The notes below the pieces were generated by a model. The model saw only the letters and a program-made list of their open reading frames with translations. It was not told the DNA's origin and did not search any database. This document shows, piece after piece, positions 4,393 through 49,882 of a stretch of 52,834 nt of DNA. Both the position numbers and the translations under genes were made by a program. How positions within the stretch are numbered: the first letter of the stretch is position 1; each line of letters opens with the position of its first letter. The stretch is taken from the NCBI GenBank assembly GCA_020052095.1, contig JAGVPT010000151.1, positions 1 through 52,834 of the forward strand, read 5' to 3'. The stretch comes from Bacteroidota bacterium (lineage in GTDB: Bacteria; Bacteroidota; Ignavibacteria; UBA10030; UBA8401).

Positions 4393-4875
4393 TTATTTTC
4401 GTGGTAATGGAATTGAATCGGGGATGCCCATGAGAGGAAAATCTTTTCTCAGCGGGAAATACTCAAACTCTTCCGGCATGTACATTCGCCTGAGGTCTTT
4501 GTTACCGTCAAAGATAATTCCAAGCATATCGTACGCCTCACGCTCCGGCCACTCTGCTCCAGCCCACACAGATGTGACGCTCGGAACGTGCATATCCGTC
4601 TCGTCCGTGAAGACCTTGAGACGAAGACGTTGTTTGCTCGCCAGAGAATACAAGTTGTAAATCACTTCGAACCTGTTCTCAGGCGTGTACGCGTCAGCTC
4701 CGCAGAGATCGCTCAGGTAGTCGAATCTGCAATCCGGATCGTCGCGAAGAAATCCGCACACCGCTACGATATCTTCCTTCCTAATATGAAGTGTCGTCTC
4801 GGCGCGAAATTCCTTCGCTTCGAGGAGGCTCGCTGGAAATTCAGACTTTAACTTTTCTACAACTTTGGTTAGCAT
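4393..4875 (-). CDS. nuoC: NADH-quinone oxidoreductase subunit C
   Basis: EREAYDMLGIIFDGNKDLRRMYMPEEFEYFPLRKDFP motif; start placed at MLTKVVEKL because the ORF extension upstream is repeat DNA. Confidence 0.93.
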   Translation of the reverse strand: MLTKVVEKLKSEFPASLLEAKEFRAETTLHIRKEDIVAVCGFLRDDPDCRFDYLSDLCGADAYTPENRFEVIYNLYSLASKQRLRLKVFTDETDMHVPSVTSVWAGAEWPEREAYDMLGIIFDGNKDLRRMYMPEEFEYFPLRKDFPLMGIPDSIPLPRK

Positions 4876-4887
4876 GCTTCGCTTGTC

Positions 4888-5005
4888 AAATTCTAATTGC
4901 AGGAATACAGGAGTCAGGATACAGGAGTCACGAGTAATGGTATAGCCACTCGCACGATGCATGTTATCCTGTCTCCTGACCCCTGTATTCTGAATTCTGT
5001 CTCCT
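4888..5005. repeat. word-hairpin island (AGGAATACAGGAGTCAGGATACAGGAGTCA ... TATCCTGTCTCCTGACCCCTGTATTCTGAATTCTGTCTCCT) between nuoC and nuoB
   Basis: Tandem degenerate words, then their reverse complement; shares loop GCACGATGCATGTTAT with 6018-6110. Confidence 0.8.
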
Positions 5006-5013
5006 CAAAAGAA

Positions 5014-5897: not shown

Positions 5898-6017
5898 GAT
5901 CTCACAATCCTATGCTGCACACAGGTCATTGTCAAGCGCCAATTCCACAGAAAATTATCAAAAAAATGGGCGAAAGTCAATGAAAGCTTCGGGATAAGTG
6001 GAAAGGGAGGTGTGATT

Positions 6018-6110
6018 TGAGGATGCAGGAGTAAGAATACAGGATTCAGGAGTAAGGAAAGAGTCAATTGCACGATGCATGTTATTCTGTATTCCTGCAA
6101 TTAGAATTGG
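6018..6110. repeat. word-hairpin island upstream of nuoA, same family as 4888-5005
   Basis: AGGATGCAGGAGTAAGAATACAGGATTCAGGAGTAAGG ... TTATTCTGTATTCCTGC; shared loop GCACGATGCATGTTAT. Confidence 0.75.
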
Positions 6111-6154
6111 ATAAGCAAGATATGCTAACCAAAGTTACTGATGTGGGGCGGCTG

Positions 6155-11450: not shown

Positions 11451-12035
11451 ATGCGCAGCGCAACGATCCAACGCAAAACCAAAGAGACGAACATCTCCGT
11501 GACACTGGAGATAGATGGGAGCGGGAAGTATTCCATCTCGACCGGCGTCGGATTTCTTGATCACATGCTCGAGCTGTTTACGAAGCACGGCATGTTCAAC
11601 CTCCAACTGAAATGCAAGGGCGATCTCCATGTGGACGATCACCACACTACGGAAGATGTCGCCATTGCACTCGGGAAGGCGTTCGACAAGGCTCTGAAAG
11701 AGAGGGCAGGAATTTCACGCTACGGCTCAGCATATGTTCCCATGGATGAATCGCTGGCGCGCTGCGTAGTTGATCTCGGCGGGCGCTCGGCATTGGTGTT
11801 CAAAGCAGACTTCAACAGAAAAAAAGTCGGCGATCTTTCCACCGAGATGATCAAGCACTTCTTTCAGTCGTTCGCCGAGAATGTCAAAGCAAACGTCCAT
11901 ATCGAAGTTTTGTACGGCGTCAACACGCATCACAAAATTGAGGCATTGTTCAAGGCGCTTGCGCGGGCGATGTGTATTGCGTGTGAGAAGGACGCGAGGG
12001 TGAAAGGTGTGCTCTCGACTAAAGGAAGACTGTAG
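11451..12035 (+). CDS. hisB: imidazoleglycerol-phosphate dehydratase
   Basis: GFLDHMLELFTKHG, DLHVDDHHTTEDVAIALG, HIEVLYGVNTHHKIEALFKALARA. Confidence 0.97.
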   Translation: MRSATIQRKTKETNISVTLEIDGSGKYSISTGVGFLDHMLELFTKHGMFNLQLKCKGDLHVDDHHTTEDVAIALGKAFDKALKERAGISRYGSAYVPMDESLARCVVDLGGRSALVFKADFNRKKVGDLSTEMIKHFFQSFAENVKANVHIEVLYGVNTHHKIEALFKALARAMCIACEKDARVKGVLSTKGRL

Positions 12036-12046
12036 TTAACGCATGA

Positions 12047-12126
12047 GTTAAAAGTGAAAAGTTAAAAGTGAAAATTAATCCGGTCGTCTCATTGCTCTTT
12101 TAACTTTTCACTTAAAACTTTTAACT
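12047..12126. repeat. solo word-hairpin between hisB and hisH (GTTAAAAGTGAAAAGTTAAAAGTGAAAA / TTTTAACTTTTCACTTAAAACTTTTAAC)
   Basis: Read directly; word is nearly that of the stem at 21048-21088 / 21464-21499. Confidence 0.85.
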
Positions 12127-12134
12127 GTTGTTCC

Positions 12135-12731
12135 ATGATTGGTATCATCGATTACAAACTGAACAACCTCCGCTCCGTCCAGAAAGCCTTTGAAAAAGTT
12201 GGGGCGGTCTCGTTTATTTCGAGCGATCCGAAAGAGCTCGCGCGTTCGGACAAACTTGTGCTGCCGGGAGTCGGAGCGTTCGGGAAGGCGATGGAGAATA
12301 TTTACTCGCTCAATCTTGAAGAAACGATCCGAGCCCATGTCGCAGACGGTAAGCCCCTCATCGGCATTTGCCTTGGCATGCAGCTTCTTTTTACACGGAG
12401 TTATGAGAACGGAGCGCACAACGGCTTGAATTTCATTAACGGAGAGGTCAAACTGTTTCCGAGTTCCGTGAAGGTTCCGCATATCGGATGGAATCAGGTC
12501 GAGATACGGCGGCAATCGAAGATTCTCACATCCGTAGTAAACAACAGTTTTGTCTATTTTGTCCACTCCTATTATACGGAACCGAAGGAGAACGTTACCC
12601 TGACAACGACTGAGTACGGTTTTCATTTTGCATCCGTCGTTCAACGTGAAAATGTGTTCGGCATTCAATTTCATCCGGAAAAGAGCCAAGTTGCGGGTCT
12701 TCAAATGCTGAAAAACTTCTCAGAACTATAA
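12135..12731 (+). CDS. hisH: imidazole glycerol phosphate synthase, glutaminase subunit
   Basis: LPGVGAFGKAM, PLIGICLGMQLLF, GIQFHPEKSQVAGLQMLKNF. Confidence 0.97.
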   Translation: MIGIIDYKLNNLRSVQKAFEKVGAVSFISSDPKELARSDKLVLPGVGAFGKAMENIYSLNLEETIRAHVADGKPLIGICLGMQLLFTRSYENGAHNGLNFINGEVKLFPSSVKVPHIGWNQVEIRRQSKILTSVVNNSFVYFVHSYYTEPKENVTLTTTEYGFHFASVVQRENVFGIQFHPEKSQVAGLQMLKNFSEL

Positions 12732-13504: not shown

Positions 13505-13592
13505 ATGACCAATGATCAATGAGTAATGGGCAACGGGAAGAACATTCTCAATTCATCACCCATTATTCATCACCCATTATTCATTACTCATT
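13505..13592. repeat. solo word-hairpin between hisA and hisF (ATGACCAATGATCAATGAGTAATGGGC / CACCCATTATTCATCACCCATTATTCATTACTCATT)
   Basis: Read directly: short degenerate word repeated and inverted. Confidence 0.8.
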
Positions 13593-16622: not shown

Positions 16623-17441
16623 ATGGGAGCAATGTTCCGAATCGCCGGCAAATTTCCGCTTGCACTATTTCCCTTACTTTTTCTTATTCTTGCAGTCGCG
16701 ATCGACTCTTGCGCGCCGTCGAAGGAAGCTGGGGTAACGCCTCCGGCCCCGAAAAAGGAACTTACGACAACGTTCAAAATTTTATCGCTCAATGTTCGTC
16801 ATACGTTGAAGGAAAAGAGTGATGTACGGAAGCTCACGAAATTCATAAAATCATCCGGAGCGGAAATAGTAGCAGTGCAGCAGATTGAACGGCCGACGGA
16901 GGGAAAAACAGGTTTCGATGCCGTCAAGGAACTTGCGAAGCAAACCGAAATGTACGACTTTTTCGGGAAGGCGCGGTTTCTGGAGGGATTCGATTCCGGC
17001 AATGCGCTTCTCAGCATCTATCCCGTGGAGCAGACGTCTGTCCGTTCGTTGCCTGTCGAGAAAGGGAAAGTCCGCCGTTCACTCGCGTTTGGCGTCGTTG
17101 ATGTCGGTTTAAAGGAACTGGGCGTGGCGTCGACAGAGTTGGATGATCAGTCGGCGCCTGAGCGACTCGCGCAGGCGGAAGAGATCTTTTCGATCGCCCA
17201 ATCGCTTTCTGACGTGTCTTTGGTTGTCTGCGGGGATTTCGGAGAATCGCTTTCGGGGAAAGCTTCGGCGAAGATGGCGGAACGATTTAACGCAGCAAAT
17301 TCGTTACAGGAAGCAGCCAAGATCTCTCAGCAACATGTCTATGCGATTAAGAATCCAAAAATCGAGCCGCTCTCAGTCGAGAAGCTGAAATTCAGCGGCT
17401 CATTCGACGCGATCCTAGTCACCATGCGAGTTACGCAGTGA
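16623..17441 (+). CDS. endonuclease/exonuclease/phosphatase-family lipoprotein
   Basis: Signal + Cys (AIDSCAPSKEA), FKILSLNVRHTLKEKSDVRKLTKFIKSSGAEIVAVQQIE, VVCGDFGE. Confidence 0.7.
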   Translation: MGAMFRIAGKFPLALFPLLFLILAVAIDSCAPSKEAGVTPPAPKKELTTTFKILSLNVRHTLKEKSDVRKLTKFIKSSGAEIVAVQQIERPTEGKTGFDAVKELAKQTEMYDFFGKARFLEGFDSGNALLSIYPVEQTSVRSLPVEKGKVRRSLAFGVVDVGLKELGVASTELDDQSAPERLAQAEEIFSIAQSLSDVSLVVCGDFGESLSGKASAKMAERFNAANSLQEAAKISQQHVYAIKNPKIEPLSVEKLKFSGSFDAILVTMRVTQ

Positions 17442-17443
17442 AC

Positions 17444-17598
17444 AGCGAACAGTAATCAGTAAGGAGTAAGCAGTAAGCAGTAAGCAGGATGCCTGACCCA
17501 CGACTCAGGACCACGGACCCAGGACCCATAACCCATAACCCATAACCCATAACCCATAACCCATAACAACGAACTCATAACTCCGAACTACTAACTCA
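17444..17598. repeat. word-repeat island upstream of serS including (AGTAAGC)3 and six exact-period ACCCATA heptamers
   Basis: Direct reading: AGTAAGCAGTAAGCAGTAAGCAG and (CCCATAA)6 at about 17525-17566. Confidence 0.85.
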
Positions 17599-17603
17599 AG
17601 ACA

Positions 17604-18869
17604 ATGCTGGACCTAAAATTTATTCGCGAACATACCGAACTCGTCAAGCAAGGCATCAAAGCGAAGCGTGAAGTTGACAACGTAGACAAAATTTTATTGC
17701 TCGACGAACAGCGCAGGGCATTCATACAGGAGGGGGAGACGTTAAAAGCGAAGCGCAACGATGTCTCGGCAAAGATCGGCCAAGTGAAAAAATCAGGCGG
17801 CGATGCAAGCAGCGCGATCACCGAGATGAACGAAGTGAAATCGCGCATTCAAGCAATAGACGAGGAATTAAAAGTCGTTCAAGAGCAAGTCGAGGCGTTG
17901 CTGCTAACGGTTCCCAATGTTCCCCACTCGTCGGTTCCTGTTGGAGCGACACCTGGGGAGAATAAAGAAGTTTCTGTTTGGGGGGAGAAGCTCTCCGTCG
18001 ACTTTGAGTTGAAGCCCCATTGGGATCTAACCGACAAACTCAGCATTATTGATTTTACGCGGGGTGCAAAGGTCACAGGCGCCGGCTTTCCGTTCTATGT
18101 CGGAAAGGGTGCGATTCTTGAGCGCTCTCTCATCAATTTTTTTCTTGACCAGGCGGCGGAACGAGGATACAAAGAATTGGCACCGCCGTTGCTCGTGAAC
18201 GAAGAGAGCGCCCGCGGCACAGGACAGATTCCCGATAAGGAAGATCTGATGTATATCGCAGAGCGCGAGGGGTACTATATGATACCCACAGCCGAAGTGC
18301 CGGTGTCGAACTTTCATAGGAAGGAAGTATTTGAGGAGAAGGAACTGCCCGTTCAATATGCCGCCTACAGCGCGTGCTTTCGTCGTGAGGCTGGTTCGTA
18401 CGGCAAAGATGTCCGCGGCCTGAACAGGCTTCATCAATTTGATAAAGTGGAGCTGGTTAAGTTCGTCTTGCCGACGAGGTCATACGAAGAATTGGAATCG
18501 CTTCGCAGCGATGCCGAGCATCTTCTGCAGTTGCTCGGACTTCCCCACCGTACATCGCTCATGTGCACTGGCGACATGGGGTTCACGCAAACAAAGAAAT
18601 ACGATCTGGAAGTCTGGGCTCCCGGTCAAAAGAAATGGCTGGAAGTTTCTTCGTGCAGCAACTTTGAAGCGTTTCAGGCCCGGCGTATGAACATTAAATA
18701 CAAAGTGAAAGAAACAGGCAAGCAAGAATTTGTCCACACGTTGAACGGTTCCGCCCTCGCGTTGCCGCGCGTCGTCGCCGCCCTCCTTGAACATTATCAA
18801 ACGCCGGAGGGGAAGGTCATTGTTCCGAAAGTGCTCCAGGCGTATACGAAGTTTGCAGTGATAGAATAG
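17604..18869 (+). CDS. serS: seryl-tRNA synthetase
   Basis: MLDLKFIREH, ACFRREAGSYGKDVRGLNRLHQFDKVELVKF, EVSSCSNFEAFQARRMNIKYK, LNGSALALPRVVAALLEHYQ. Confidence 0.97.
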   Translation: MLDLKFIREHTELVKQGIKAKREVDNVDKILLLDEQRRAFIQEGETLKAKRNDVSAKIGQVKKSGGDASSAITEMNEVKSRIQAIDEELKVVQEQVEALLLTVPNVPHSSVPVGATPGENKEVSVWGEKLSVDFELKPHWDLTDKLSIIDFTRGAKVTGAGFPFYVGKGAILERSLINFFLDQAAERGYKELAPPLLVNEESARGTGQIPDKEDLMYIAEREGYYMIPTAEVPVSNFHRKEVFEEKELPVQYAAYSACFRREAGSYGKDVRGLNRLHQFDKVELVKFVLPTRSYEELESLRSDAEHLLQLLGLPHRTSLMCTGDMGFTQTKKYDLEVWAPGQKKWLEVSSCSNFEAFQARRMNIKYKVKETGKQEFVHTLNGSALALPRVVAALLEHYQTPEGKVIVPKVLQAYTKFAVIE

Positions 18870-18880
18870 GGAGAGGGTTC

Positions 18881-19283
18881 TTAGCTCTTTGCCATTAGCT
18901 ATTGGGGGGACAAATGAGAAATTTCACAACACTCAATATTTGGCAACAGGGAATACAACTTGTTATTGATGTATACAAGTTGTCTGAAAAGTTACCAGCG
19001 GAAGAGAAGTACGGATTGAAGAGTTAGATATGCCGCGCGGCGGTTTCTATTCCTTCCAACATTGCCGAAGGTAGCAGTAGACCGAGCGAAGCAGAGTATG
19101 GACGCTTTTTGGAAATGGCGTTGGGATCTGCGTACGAAGTAGAAACCCAATTAATAACAATTCAAAGATTGCATTTAGTTTCCAGCGATCAAATAGAAAA
19201 ACCGCAAACCTTGTTGGATCTAGAGCAGAAAATGATCAACAGTCTAATAAGCAAGCTAAAGCCAAAAGCAAATAGCTAACAGC
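18881..19283. mobile_element. IVS-like element: inverted TTAGCT..TTTGC words bracketing an interrupted four-helix-bundle gene
   Basis: Left TTAGCTCTTTGCCATTAGCTATT (18881-18903); right AAGCTAAAGCCAAAAGCAAATAGCTAAC (about 19253-19280) is its degenerate reverse complement. Confidence 0.6.
18914..19279 (+). pseudogene. four-helix-bundle (23S rRNA intervening-sequence protein family) gene with in-frame TAG at 19025-19027
   Basis: One frame reads [120 protein letters not shown]; the stop sits where the family usually has Q of [17 protein letters not shown]. Confidence 0.85.
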
Positions 19284-19288
19284 CAATC

Positions 19289-21052
19289 ATGAAATCCCTT
19301 CTGCGTCTCCGTTCCTACCTCGCAAAGTATAAAACCACGTTATTCTGGGGTATCTGTACGGTGATCGTCAGCAATCTGTTCATGGTCGCAACGCCTCTTT
19401 TTATCGGCAATGCGATCGACACAATCAAGCGCGGACTTGAAACTGGCGTGTTGCATCACACAGATTTACTGGCGTATGCCGGATTGATCGTCGGGTTTGC
19501 ATCGGTGTCTGGCTACATGACCTTTCTGACGCGGCAGACCATCATTGTTGTTTCGCGCAAGATTGAATATGACCTGCGCAATGATTTTCTTTCGCACATT
19601 CAAAAGCTACCCCTTAATTACTTTCAGAATACTCCGACCGGCGATCTGATGGCGCACGCAACTAATGACATCTCCGCGGTGCGCAACGCGCTCGGTCCGG
19701 GCATTATGTACCCATCCGATACATTCATGACATTTTCAATGGCGCTGACGCTCATGTTCATTATGGACTCATCGCTGACATGGATGGCGCTGGTTCCGCT
19801 CCCGCTTGTGTCGTACGCGGTCTATAAGCTTGGACAGATTATTCATGCCAAGTTCAACGAGAGGCAGGAGCAGTATTCTCTCCTGACCACGCGCGCCCAG
19901 GAAAATCTTTCGGGCATTCGTGTGGTAAAGGCGTATGTGCGCGAGGAGTACGAGATCGGACTTTTCGAAAAATTGAGTTGGGAGTATTTGAAGAAAAATC
20001 TCGTTCTCGCGAAGGCGCAATCGGTGATGTGGCCGTTAATGTACATGCTTGTGGGATTCTCATTGGTTATCACAGTGTATTTCGGCGGCCTTCAGGTGAT
20101 TGAGGGAAAAATCACCATCGGCACATTAACCGCATTCTTTACGTATCTCTCCATGTTGATCTGGCCGATGATCGCCTTCGGTTGGGTGACGAACATCATC
20201 CAACAAGGGGCGGCATCGATGGAAAGGCTTGGCAAAATATTTGACACGGTGCCGGAGATTCGGGATACCGATACAACGGATATTCTGATCAAACACCTCG
20301 ATGGCGGAATAGAATTCAGCAATGTCTCCTTTACGCACAAAGGGGCGCCAAAGCCGACGTTGCAGAACATTTCTCTGAAAATACCCAAAGGAACGACGCT
20401 TGCCGTCGTTGGCTATACCGGCTCCGGGAAGAGCACGTTTATCAATTTGATCTCCCGATTGTACGATGTAACTGAGGGAGAACTCCGTATCGATGGAGTT
20501 GACATAAGGAAAATTCCGCTTGAGGTGTTGCGCACACATATCGGCTACGTGCCGCAGGAGACATTTCTTTTCTCCGAATCCATATCGGAAAACATCAGTT
20601 ACGGCGCAGACGGGACTTCGCGGGAACAAATCCATGAAGCAGCGGAGATTTCCCAAATCGGCAAGGATGTTTCGGAATTTCCGCAGCAGTTCGACACCAT
20701 GCTCGGCGAGCGGGGCATCACATTGTCGGGCGGACAAAAACAGCGCACAAGCATTGCGCGGGCAGTGATGCGCAGGCCGAAGATCCTCATTTTGGATGAT
20801 GCCCTCTCGTCGGTCGATACGTACACGGAAGAGGCGATACTCGGTCGGCTTCGCCGCGTGATGGAAGACCGGACAAGCATTATTATCAGTCACCGTATCT
20901 CCACGGTGAAAGAAGCGGACATGATTATCGTTCTGGATAAAGGGCGGATTGTCGAGCAAGGATCGCACGATGAACTCGTGGAACGGGGAGGGATCTATGC
21001 GAATCTGCACTACAAGCAATTGCTGGAGAAGGAATTGGAGCAGCTCAATTAA
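19289..21052 (+). CDS. ABC exporter, TM + ATPase half-transporter
   Basis: Walker A GYTGSGKSTF, LSGGQKQRTSIARAV, Walker B ILILDDALSSVD; six-TM N-terminal domain. Confidence 0.95.
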   Translation: MKSLLRLRSYLAKYKTTLFWGICTVIVSNLFMVATPLFIGNAIDTIKRGLETGVLHHTDLLAYAGLIVGFASVSGYMTFLTRQTIIVVSRKIEYDLRNDFLSHIQKLPLNYFQNTPTGDLMAHATNDISAVRNALGPGIMYPSDTFMTFSMALTLMFIMDSSLTWMALVPLPLVSYAVYKLGQIIHAKFNERQEQYSLLTTRAQENLSGIRVVKAYVREEYEIGLFEKLSWEYLKKNLVLAKAQSVMWPLMYMLVGFSLVITVYFGGLQVIEGKITIGTLTAFFTYLSMLIWPMIAFGWVTNIIQQGAASMERLGKIFDTVPEIRDTDTTDILIKHLDGGIEFSNVSFTHKGAPKPTLQNISLKIPKGTTLAVVGYTGSGKSTFINLISRLYDVTEGELRIDGVDIRKIPLEVLRTHIGYVPQETFLFSESISENISYGADGTSREQIHEAAEISQIGKDVSEFPQQFDTMLGERGITLSGGQKQRTSIARAVMRRPKILILDDALSSVDTYTEEAILGRLRRVMEDRTSIIISHRISTVKEADMIIVLDKGRIVEQGSHDELVERGGIYANLHYKQLLEKELEQLN

Positions 21053-21499
21053 AAGTTGAAAATGAAAAGTTGAAAATTATAAATGATTAGGGGGGATCAT
21101 GAAAGAGAAGGATATAAAGATTTTAGATAGAAGTTATCAATTTGCGCTCAGGGTAGTCAAAATGGGGCAACAACTACCCGAGAATAATGGCGCCAGGATT
21201 ATTGGCAAGCAACTTCTCAGAGCGGGGACTTCAGTAGGTGCAAATATCGAAGAAGCAATCAGAGCATACTCAAAACCAGAATTTACCCACAGAATGAGTG
21301 TTGCACTGAAAGAGGCAAGAGAGACTCACTATTGGCTTCGTCTTCTCCGGGATTCATCAATAATAAAGCAGATAAGACTTCAAGCGATCATATTGGAAGC
21401 TGAAGAAATGAAGAAAATTCTCGGTGCAATTGTCCGCACCGCTCGCAAGAACAAAATATGTTGAATCATTTTTCACTTTCAACTTTTAACTTTTCACTG
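21048..21499. mobile_element. IVS-like element: inverted AAAAGTTGAAAA words bracketing an intact four-helix-bundle gene between two ABC exporter genes
   Basis: Left inner AAAAGTTGAAAATTATAAATGATT vs reverse complement of right AAAAGTTGAAAGTGAAAAATGATT; ORF start and stop directly abut the inner ends. Confidence 0.75.
21099..21464 (+). CDS. four-helix-bundle protein (23S rRNA intervening-sequence protein family)
   Basis: DRSYQFALRVVKMGQQLPEN...IGKQLLRAGTSVGANIEEAIRAYSKPEFTHRMSVALKEARETHYWLRLL; RBS AGGGGGG. Confidence 0.93.
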   Translation: MKEKDIKILDRSYQFALRVVKMGQQLPENNGARIIGKQLLRAGTSVGANIEEAIRAYSKPEFTHRMSVALKEARETHYWLRLLRDSSIIKQIRLQAIILEAEEMKKILGAIVRTARKNKIC

Positions 21500-25198: not shown

Positions 25199-25411
25199 CC
25201 ATTGATTGCGCTGATTACGCTGATTGCGCTCAGATTGCTGATTTCTCAGATGGCGATGTACGCATCATCCCTCAACTCCTTATTCAAGAAAGTACAGCTT
25301 TCGTCTGAACTTTGGCCAATCCAAATTCACTTCTCATGGTCTATACCCTGCTTACAATCTGCGTAATCTGCAATCTGCGATAAATCTGAGCAATCAGAGC
25401 AATCAACTTGT
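25199..25411. repeat. palindromic island (ATTGATTGCGCTGATTACGCTGATTGCG ... CAATCTGCGATAAATCTGAGCAATCAGAGCAATCAA)
   Basis: Internal inverted words; its right arm also pairs with 23277-23326. Confidence 0.85.
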
Positions 25412-33865: not shown

Positions 33866-33959
33866 GTTGACCGTTATCTTCACTCTGTTTGAAAATTCAT
33901 TCCTCTGATCTGTGGTGGCCCGAACAGAAGTCCAACGGATTGAAAAGATAACGGTCAAC
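33866..33959. repeat. 94 bp element with perfect 15 bp terminal inverted repeats GTTGACCGTTATCTT / AAGATAACGGTCAAC
   Basis: Direct reading; core resembles RAYT-flanking palindromes at 49177-49250 and 49850-49882. Confidence 0.85.
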
Positions 33960-49176: not shown

Positions 49177-49250
49177 GATGACCGTTACCTCCACGGTAAC
49201 GGTCATCTTTCTAATCGAGGTAACCGTTATCCTGAAGATAATGGTTACCT
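49177..49250. repeat. two REP-like palindromes 5' of the RAYT gene
   Basis: GATGACCGTTACCTCCACGGTAACGGTCATC (49177-49207); AGGTAACCGTTATCCTGAAGATAATGGTTACCT (49218-49250). Confidence 0.9.
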
Positions 49251-49849: not shown

Positions 49850-49882
49850 AGATAACCGTTACCTGCAAGGTAACGGTTATCT
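49850..49882. repeat. REP-like palindrome 3' of the RAYT gene
   Basis: AGATAACCGTTACC TGCAA GGTAACGGTTATCT. Confidence 0.92.

Follow-up and report, generated by a model that had tools for sequence, protein, structure and literature searches.

S23 intervening sequences (IVSs) were recognized in 23S rRNA decades ago, and to our knowledge neither a function nor a mode of spread has been accepted for them. The 23S rRNA IVS of Coxiella burnetii is 428 nt long, carries an S23 ORF, is closed by a 28-bp terminal stem and is excised by RNase III; it has been called a selfish element, its mobility not having been demonstrated (PMC4990558). The elements analyzed here are similar in that a PF05635 ORF lies in a unit of ~430-450 nt bounded on both sides by inverted repeats of about 28 bp. 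Unlike the 23S rRNA IVSs, they reside in gaps of protein operons, their arms consist of reiterated 7-8-nt words specific to S23 clades (here termed dialects), ORF-less hairpins of the same dialect occur alongside them, and their S23 ORFs evolve under purifying selection between species.

The hairpin at 12046-12126, located between hisB and hisH, had been taken in a sequence-only reading for a solo, MITE-like derivative of such an element. It is indeed a short ORF-less inverted-repeat unit with ends matching those of a coding element (21048-21499). Unlike in MITEs, however, the coding partner encodes PF05635 only and no transposase, and the arms are drifting tandem words; no target-site duplication was found at the site and no recent copy in the genome, so that in the strict sense a MITE-like derivative is only putative. 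REP sequences, associated with RAYT-type transposases, are likewise dispersed intergenic palindromes found in operons and patchy among relatives. REPs are short conserved palindromes, most of them tagged GTAG or CGTC (PMC3733652). Neither tag is present in 12046-12126 and the words differ between islands; unlike REPs, the present elements use tens of unrelated dialects and occur with an S23 or GxxExxY ORF.

Cyanobacterial STRRs are heptanucleotide intergenic repeats. The TAACTGA repeats of Beggiatoaceae form 169 direct-repeat sets and one inverted repeat, and no linked ORF family was found there (PMC4679880). Both share with the present arrays a 7-nt unit and an intergenic tandem arrangement, but consist essentially of a single word repeated directly, whereas the arrays described here are inverted pairs of many different words and are ORF-linked. 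Avd of diversity-generating retroelements is an S23-like protein, and the resemblance lies in this related four-helix bundle. In contrast to those systems, no reverse transcriptase was found inside the present elements, and the single RVT_1 hit of the genome is on a contig (C36) where no S23 ORF occurs; retro-mobilization by an adjacent reverse transcriptase was rejected on these grounds. The open-access literature yielded no description of S23 or GxxExxY ORFs with intergenic inverted arrays of clade-specific words. The elements are thus apparently undescribed, a novelty that is provisional because subscription papers lay outside the search.

The hisB-hisH hairpin and a matching S23 element

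Nearly all of the hisB-hisH gap is taken up by a hairpin with two 29-nt arms (Table 1). Folded as RNA, the gap has an energy of -24.9 kcal/mol (z -3.5), a stability reached by none of 200 dinucleotide shuffles. An intrinsic terminator and a known Rfam RNA were rejected as identities of 12046-12126, since the hairpin has no terminator-like T tract and matched no Rfam family.

Table 1. Coordinates of the hairpins, elements and neighboring genes; positions refer to the window (the whole stretch of 52,834 nt that was analyzed) unless preceded by a locus label.
Feature	Position	Strand	Description
hisB (PF00475)	11451..12035	+	Upstream neighbor of the hairpin; IGPD, E 4e-68; stop codon 10 nt before left arm
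ORF-less hairpin, left arm	12046..12074	+	Four 7-nt words, GTTAAAA GTGAAAA GTTAAAA GTGAAAA
Hairpin loop	12075..12097		23 nt, no ORF; no S23 relic by tblastn
ORF-less hairpin, right arm	12098..12126	+	Words of the left arm as reverse complement, 83% complementary
hisH (PF00117)	12135..12731	+	Downstream neighbor; start 8 nt after right arm
Second ORF-less word hairpin of the his operon	13511..13592	+	hisA-hisF gap; different S23 dialect (AATGATCAATGAGTAATGGG)
Second S23 element of the window	18881..19284	+	ORF interrupted by TAG (18929-19243); different words (TTAGCTATTGGC)
Left word array, ORF-bearing element	21049..21081	+	Same dialect as hairpin; overlaps stop codon of upstream ABC transporter gene
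S23 / four-helix-bundle ORF	21099..21464	+	PF05635 (E 5.9e-24), TIGR02436; nearest solved structure 2rld
Right word array, ORF-bearing element	21466..21499	+	Same element as the S23 ORF 21099..21464
GxxExxY-dialect word island	25202..25406		Words CGCTGATTG / CGCAGATTG
GCCACAAAGGCACGAAGG hairpins	L022 5663-5812; L079 4132-4291; L085 15337-15489; L089 1946-2122; L093 14157-14264; L096 6912-7061		

The element at 21048-21499 sits ~9 kb downstream of the hairpin, between two ABC transporter genes, and its arms (TTAAAAGTTGAAAATGAAAAGTTGAAAA / TTTTCACTTTCAACTTTTAACTTTTCACT) enclose a PF05635 ORF that is preceded by the G-run AGGGGGG. The arms are 35 nt long and 80% complementary, in keeping with the terminal inverted repeats of an IVS (~28 bp stem). 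No rRNA was found in the window, and the element thus lacks the 23S rRNA helix in which an IVS is set. The window also holds the S23 element at 18881-19284, in the gap that separates seryl-tRNA synthetase from an ABC transporter gene; the equivalent gap held no S23 ORF in the relatives examined.

The claim that the hairpin uses nearly the same word as the element at 21048-21499 was borne out by several comparisons. Aligned ungapped with the reverse-complemented right arm of the element, its left arm is identical at 26 of 29 positions. Of 14,352 placements drawn at random from the intergenic sequence of the genome sample (781 kb of contig stretches), none reached the two-arm score. Among 148 ORF-bearing flanks from the family, comprising 124 S23 and 24 GxxExxY elements, this element ranked first, with a score of 18.7 against a shuffle mean of 12.4 and a maximum of 15.2. 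Word comparisons are weakened here by the A-rich composition of the GTTAAAA dialect. Second in rank was the S23 element of G011 in the orthologous ABC-transporter gap. The hairpin thus consists of inverted 7-nt arrays in a dialect found around S23 ORFs, and its best-matching flank, from an S23 element also in the window, ties it to the four-helix-bundle family, as had been proposed.

Pairing by chance in a generic A-rich sequence was the obvious objection. In its favor, the word by itself shows only a modest enrichment, a 14-mer with ≤2 mismatches forming 30 clusters in 781 kb against ~14.5 raw hits per shuffle. The sample nevertheless contains 74 of 375 intergenic regions with a self-complementarity of at least 14, where 1.3 were expected, and the arms are specific for their own partner. 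An inverted partner within 600 nt was present for 6 of 18 intergenic occurrences of the word and for 0 of 12 genic ones, contrary to what a generic AT-rich motif would give. Together with the placement control, these comparisons refute the objection and leave it with hardly any probability.

GTTAAAA-type words recur elsewhere in the genome, several times as ORF-less hairpins on other contigs. None of these is a near-identical copy of the hisB-hisH hairpin, the best full-length match being 74%, and no recent movement of this dialect is therefore visible.

Word dialects in the S23 and GxxExxY families

The genome encodes 12 PF05635 genes, nearly all of which are found inside inverted arrays of a 7-8-nt word, each with a different word. 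A family set of 124 distinct S23 ORFs was assembled from 22 genomes, the relatives in the named collection being uncultured Bacteroidota/Ignavibacteria MAGs. Inverted matching flanks (score at least 14) surround 77 of these 124 ORFs compared with 5 of 124 when the best of three dinucleotide shuffles was taken for each, and a period of 7 nt fits the arms best in 47 of 80 elements and one of 8 nt in 19. The arrangement extends beyond the family: in a phylum-wide sample, inverted word flanks were present in 17 of 28 S23 elements (3 of 28 after shuffling), and PF05635 scored above cut-off in 113 of 148 phylum genomes.

When words were compared along a tree of 118 S23 proteins, close relatives were found to share words at orthologous and different sites alike. 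Different-site pairs share a fraction of 0.34 of their 6-mers at distances of 0.3-0.8 and of 0.16 at 0.8-1.2, the background being 0.04. Close different-site pairs share 0.100 of their 6-mers compared with 0.048 after permutation, and none of 2000 permutations reached the observed mean; a different site here means flanking ORFs without detectable homology, a definition under which cases at contig ends may be misclassified. Since the words track the S23 tree even at different sites, word and ORF would most simply be one inherited unit. In the unselected set, the pairing of an element's own arms stays at ~15 at all S23 distances, whereas cross-pairing, in which a left arm is set against the right arm of a different element, declines with distance (15.6, 13.7, 11.9, 10.0, 9.0 and 8.5), indicating that complementarity is maintained rather than any particular word. 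The protein itself is under purifying selection, as judged from dN/dS values of 0.02-0.22 in 15 close pairs. Orthologous elements are often at the same site, with 174 same-site pairs across genera, and vertical inheritance therefore dominates.

A second ORF family has the same layout. GxxExxY proteins (PF13366) are enclosed by inverted 8-9-nt words of the types CACAGAGGC, CGCAGAGGA and CACGAAGGC, and 23 of 30 ORFs collected by profile have inverted flanks at a score of at least 14, compared with 0 of 30 in shuffles. For the island at 25202-25406 the best match is to the flanks of L362, a GxxExxY gene of the same genome, with a score of 32.5 against a shuffle maximum of 12.5. Dispersed ORF-less hairpins of a GxxExxY dialect (GCCACAAAGGCACGAAGG) have a conserved outer stem, TTACGCA. 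They belong to a similarity cluster in the genome sample with a best pair that is 94% identical over 166 nt, an identity that suggests a recent spread of these ORF-less members.

Word islands were defined as intergenic islands of the 781-kb sample with a score of at least 13 and short-period words (n=22), and were assigned to a dialect when the match to an ORF-bearing flank exceeded all shuffles by at least 1.5. Alignment scores with shuffles were used because 6-mer sharing with S23 arms is weak for A-rich dialects. With these thresholds, 19 of 22 islands fell with an ORF-bearing dialect, as against 2 of 22 control hairpins, both of them GxxExxY-type islands overlooked by the periodicity filter. 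This agrees with the expectation of the sequence-only reading that islands cluster with ORF-bearing members. Its more specific link of islands to S23 stood for 14 of the 19 and gave way to GxxExxY (PF13366) for the other five. Only 6 of the 14 S23 assignments were to an element of the same genome, 2 of these 6 being flanks of ORF-bearing elements, and the rest match S23 dialects of relatives. In one island of the hairpin's dialect (L005), inspection by eye revealed a loop in which, as in S23 leaders, a G-run precedes an ATG-like sequence (minus strand).

The reading we favor, with a probability of roughly 0.6, places the hisB-hisH hairpin, as a member without an ORF, in a group of intergenic elements that are self-complementary and in whose full-length members the S23 protein would recognize its own arms. 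A full-length member has two inverted arrays of one 7-8-nt word around an S23-type four-helix-bundle ORF, and the hairpin is a relative bearing the dialect of 21048-21499. The putative recognition would be directed at the arms in their paired state, as a hairpin of RNA (or DNA), and would explain the co-descent of protein and word. ORF-bearing elements may act in trans, allowing ORF-less hairpins of the same dialect to persist or spread as followers. Insertion into an operon may be tolerated because the hairpin would fold out of the mRNA and draw the hisB stop codon near the hisH start. In design, such an element corresponds to a 23S rRNA IVS transferred to mRNA gaps.

A broader proposal, which we hold only tentatively, is that S23 and GxxExxY (PDDEXK-type), two small ORF families unrelated to each other, each stand at the head of a large superfamily of self-pairing elements in intergenic gaps, with lineage-specific 7-9-nt dialects. 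These dialects would co-evolve with the protein (tested for S23), and the arms would be kept complementary while their sequence drifts. This would amount to protein-specific recognition of repeat-built hairpins with many ORF-less followers that compete for operon gaps across Bacteroidota. The presence of the S23 family in many mRNA-gap elements, under purifying selection and with lineage-specific arrays, makes recognition of the own dialect directly testable. The proposal also offers an explanation for many intergenic word repeats of these genomes, and the word predicts the ORF family to which an orphan hairpin belongs.

Insertion and decay in operon gaps

Synteny of the block from hisB to the second of two ABC transporter genes (ABC1 and ABC2) extends over much of the family, and the content of its gaps can be followed between genomes. 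The hisB-hisH gap has GTTAAAA words in G000, CAATGAA-clade S23 dialects in G001 and G011/G021, GTTTCAG in G004 and a GxxExxY dialect in G009; it is empty, short or overlapping in G010, G005, G012, G016 and G017. hisB and hisH overlap by 4 nt in 8 of the 15 other-family genomes of the order in which the two are adjacent, and likewise in G016 and G017. With mostly overlapping genes in the outgroups, the hairpin is, judging from this gene arrangement, derived, i.e., an insertion relative to the outgroup state. No filled and empty gaps could be paired closely enough for the ends of the insertion or a target-site duplication to be delimited, relatives being too divergent at this gap. Dialects vary among genomes at hisA-hisF as they do at hisB-hisH, and word hairpins are rare in the other gaps of the block. 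The occurrence of different element families in the same gaps would be explained most simply by independent insertion.

The patchy distribution also bears on a function for the host. A regulatory RNA of the his operon, such as an attenuator, an RNase III processing site or an mRNA stabilizer, would account for a strong mRNA stem placed exactly in an operon gap and recurring there in about half of the family. The hairpin is, however, missing in about half of the relatives, in which the genes overlap or nearly touch, and its sequence, length and dialect vary between genera. Similar hairpins occur in unrelated gaps, and neither an Rfam family nor a terminator-like T tract marks this one, making a host RNA highly improbable.

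Some islands are hybrids, with arms of two dialects that do not pair (window 17441-17604, hisB-hisH of G002 and hisA-hisF of G010); one example has GTAAGCA on the left and CATAACC on the right. They suggest recombination or nested insertion between islands. Such hybrids would also be expected if a resident hairpin had been inherited in the gap and its words rewritten by slippage or by conversion from other islands. Words do drift at orthologous S23 sites, and the dialect differs between genomes more often at hisB-hisH and hisA-hisF than at the other gaps of the block. We nevertheless regard a rewritten resident as quite unlikely: the overlapping genes of the outgroups and of G016/G017 make an empty ancestral gap most likely, and drift alone leaves unexplained why the hisB-hisH dialects are those of S23 in G000, G001, G011 and G021 but of another ORF family, GxxExxY, in G009.

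Decay can be followed at the ABC1-ABC2 gap, where G000, G009 and G011 have an S23 element and G003, G017 and G018, as read by eye, S23 C-terminal relics with word remnants. The S23 elements at this gap in three genera group together in an unresolved part of the S23 tree. The relics and the grouping indicate that this gap has seen old insertion, vertical descent, drift of the words and the decay in situ of ORF-bearing elements. An S23 element once present between hisB and hisH might likewise have lost its ORF by deletion and left its arms behind, and the leader-like loop of L005 would fit such a history. Set against this are the 23-nt loop without a recognizable remnant, the other dialects of the occupied relatives, and the lack of any S23 ORF or relic at this position in the family genomes with a hisB-hisH gap or in the order sample. 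Decay in place is therefore a rather unlikely origin for this hairpin, and an ORF-less member of the S23 group is the reading we retain.

Several further repeats were observed in intergenic positions. CAGGATT/CAGGAGT words are inverted across two adjacent gaps of the nuoA-nuoB-nuoC cluster (window 4861-5010 and 5990-6136). Short perfect palindromes (AGATGTAGGACATCTT, AGTGATGCCATGACT, AGCTATCCGATTGCT) form separate dispersed families without word periodicity or a known ORF link, and are found at L025 14068-14146, L085 11939-12003, L108 3383-3461, L096 10314-10414 and other places. The copies of another palindrome family (TGACCGTCACC / TAACCGTTACC) show compensating differences, and its presence at one gap varies between relatives; it occurs in the hisF-hisI gap of G004, G009, G011, G019 and G021, and in the window at 33866-33959, 49177-49207 and 49850-49882.
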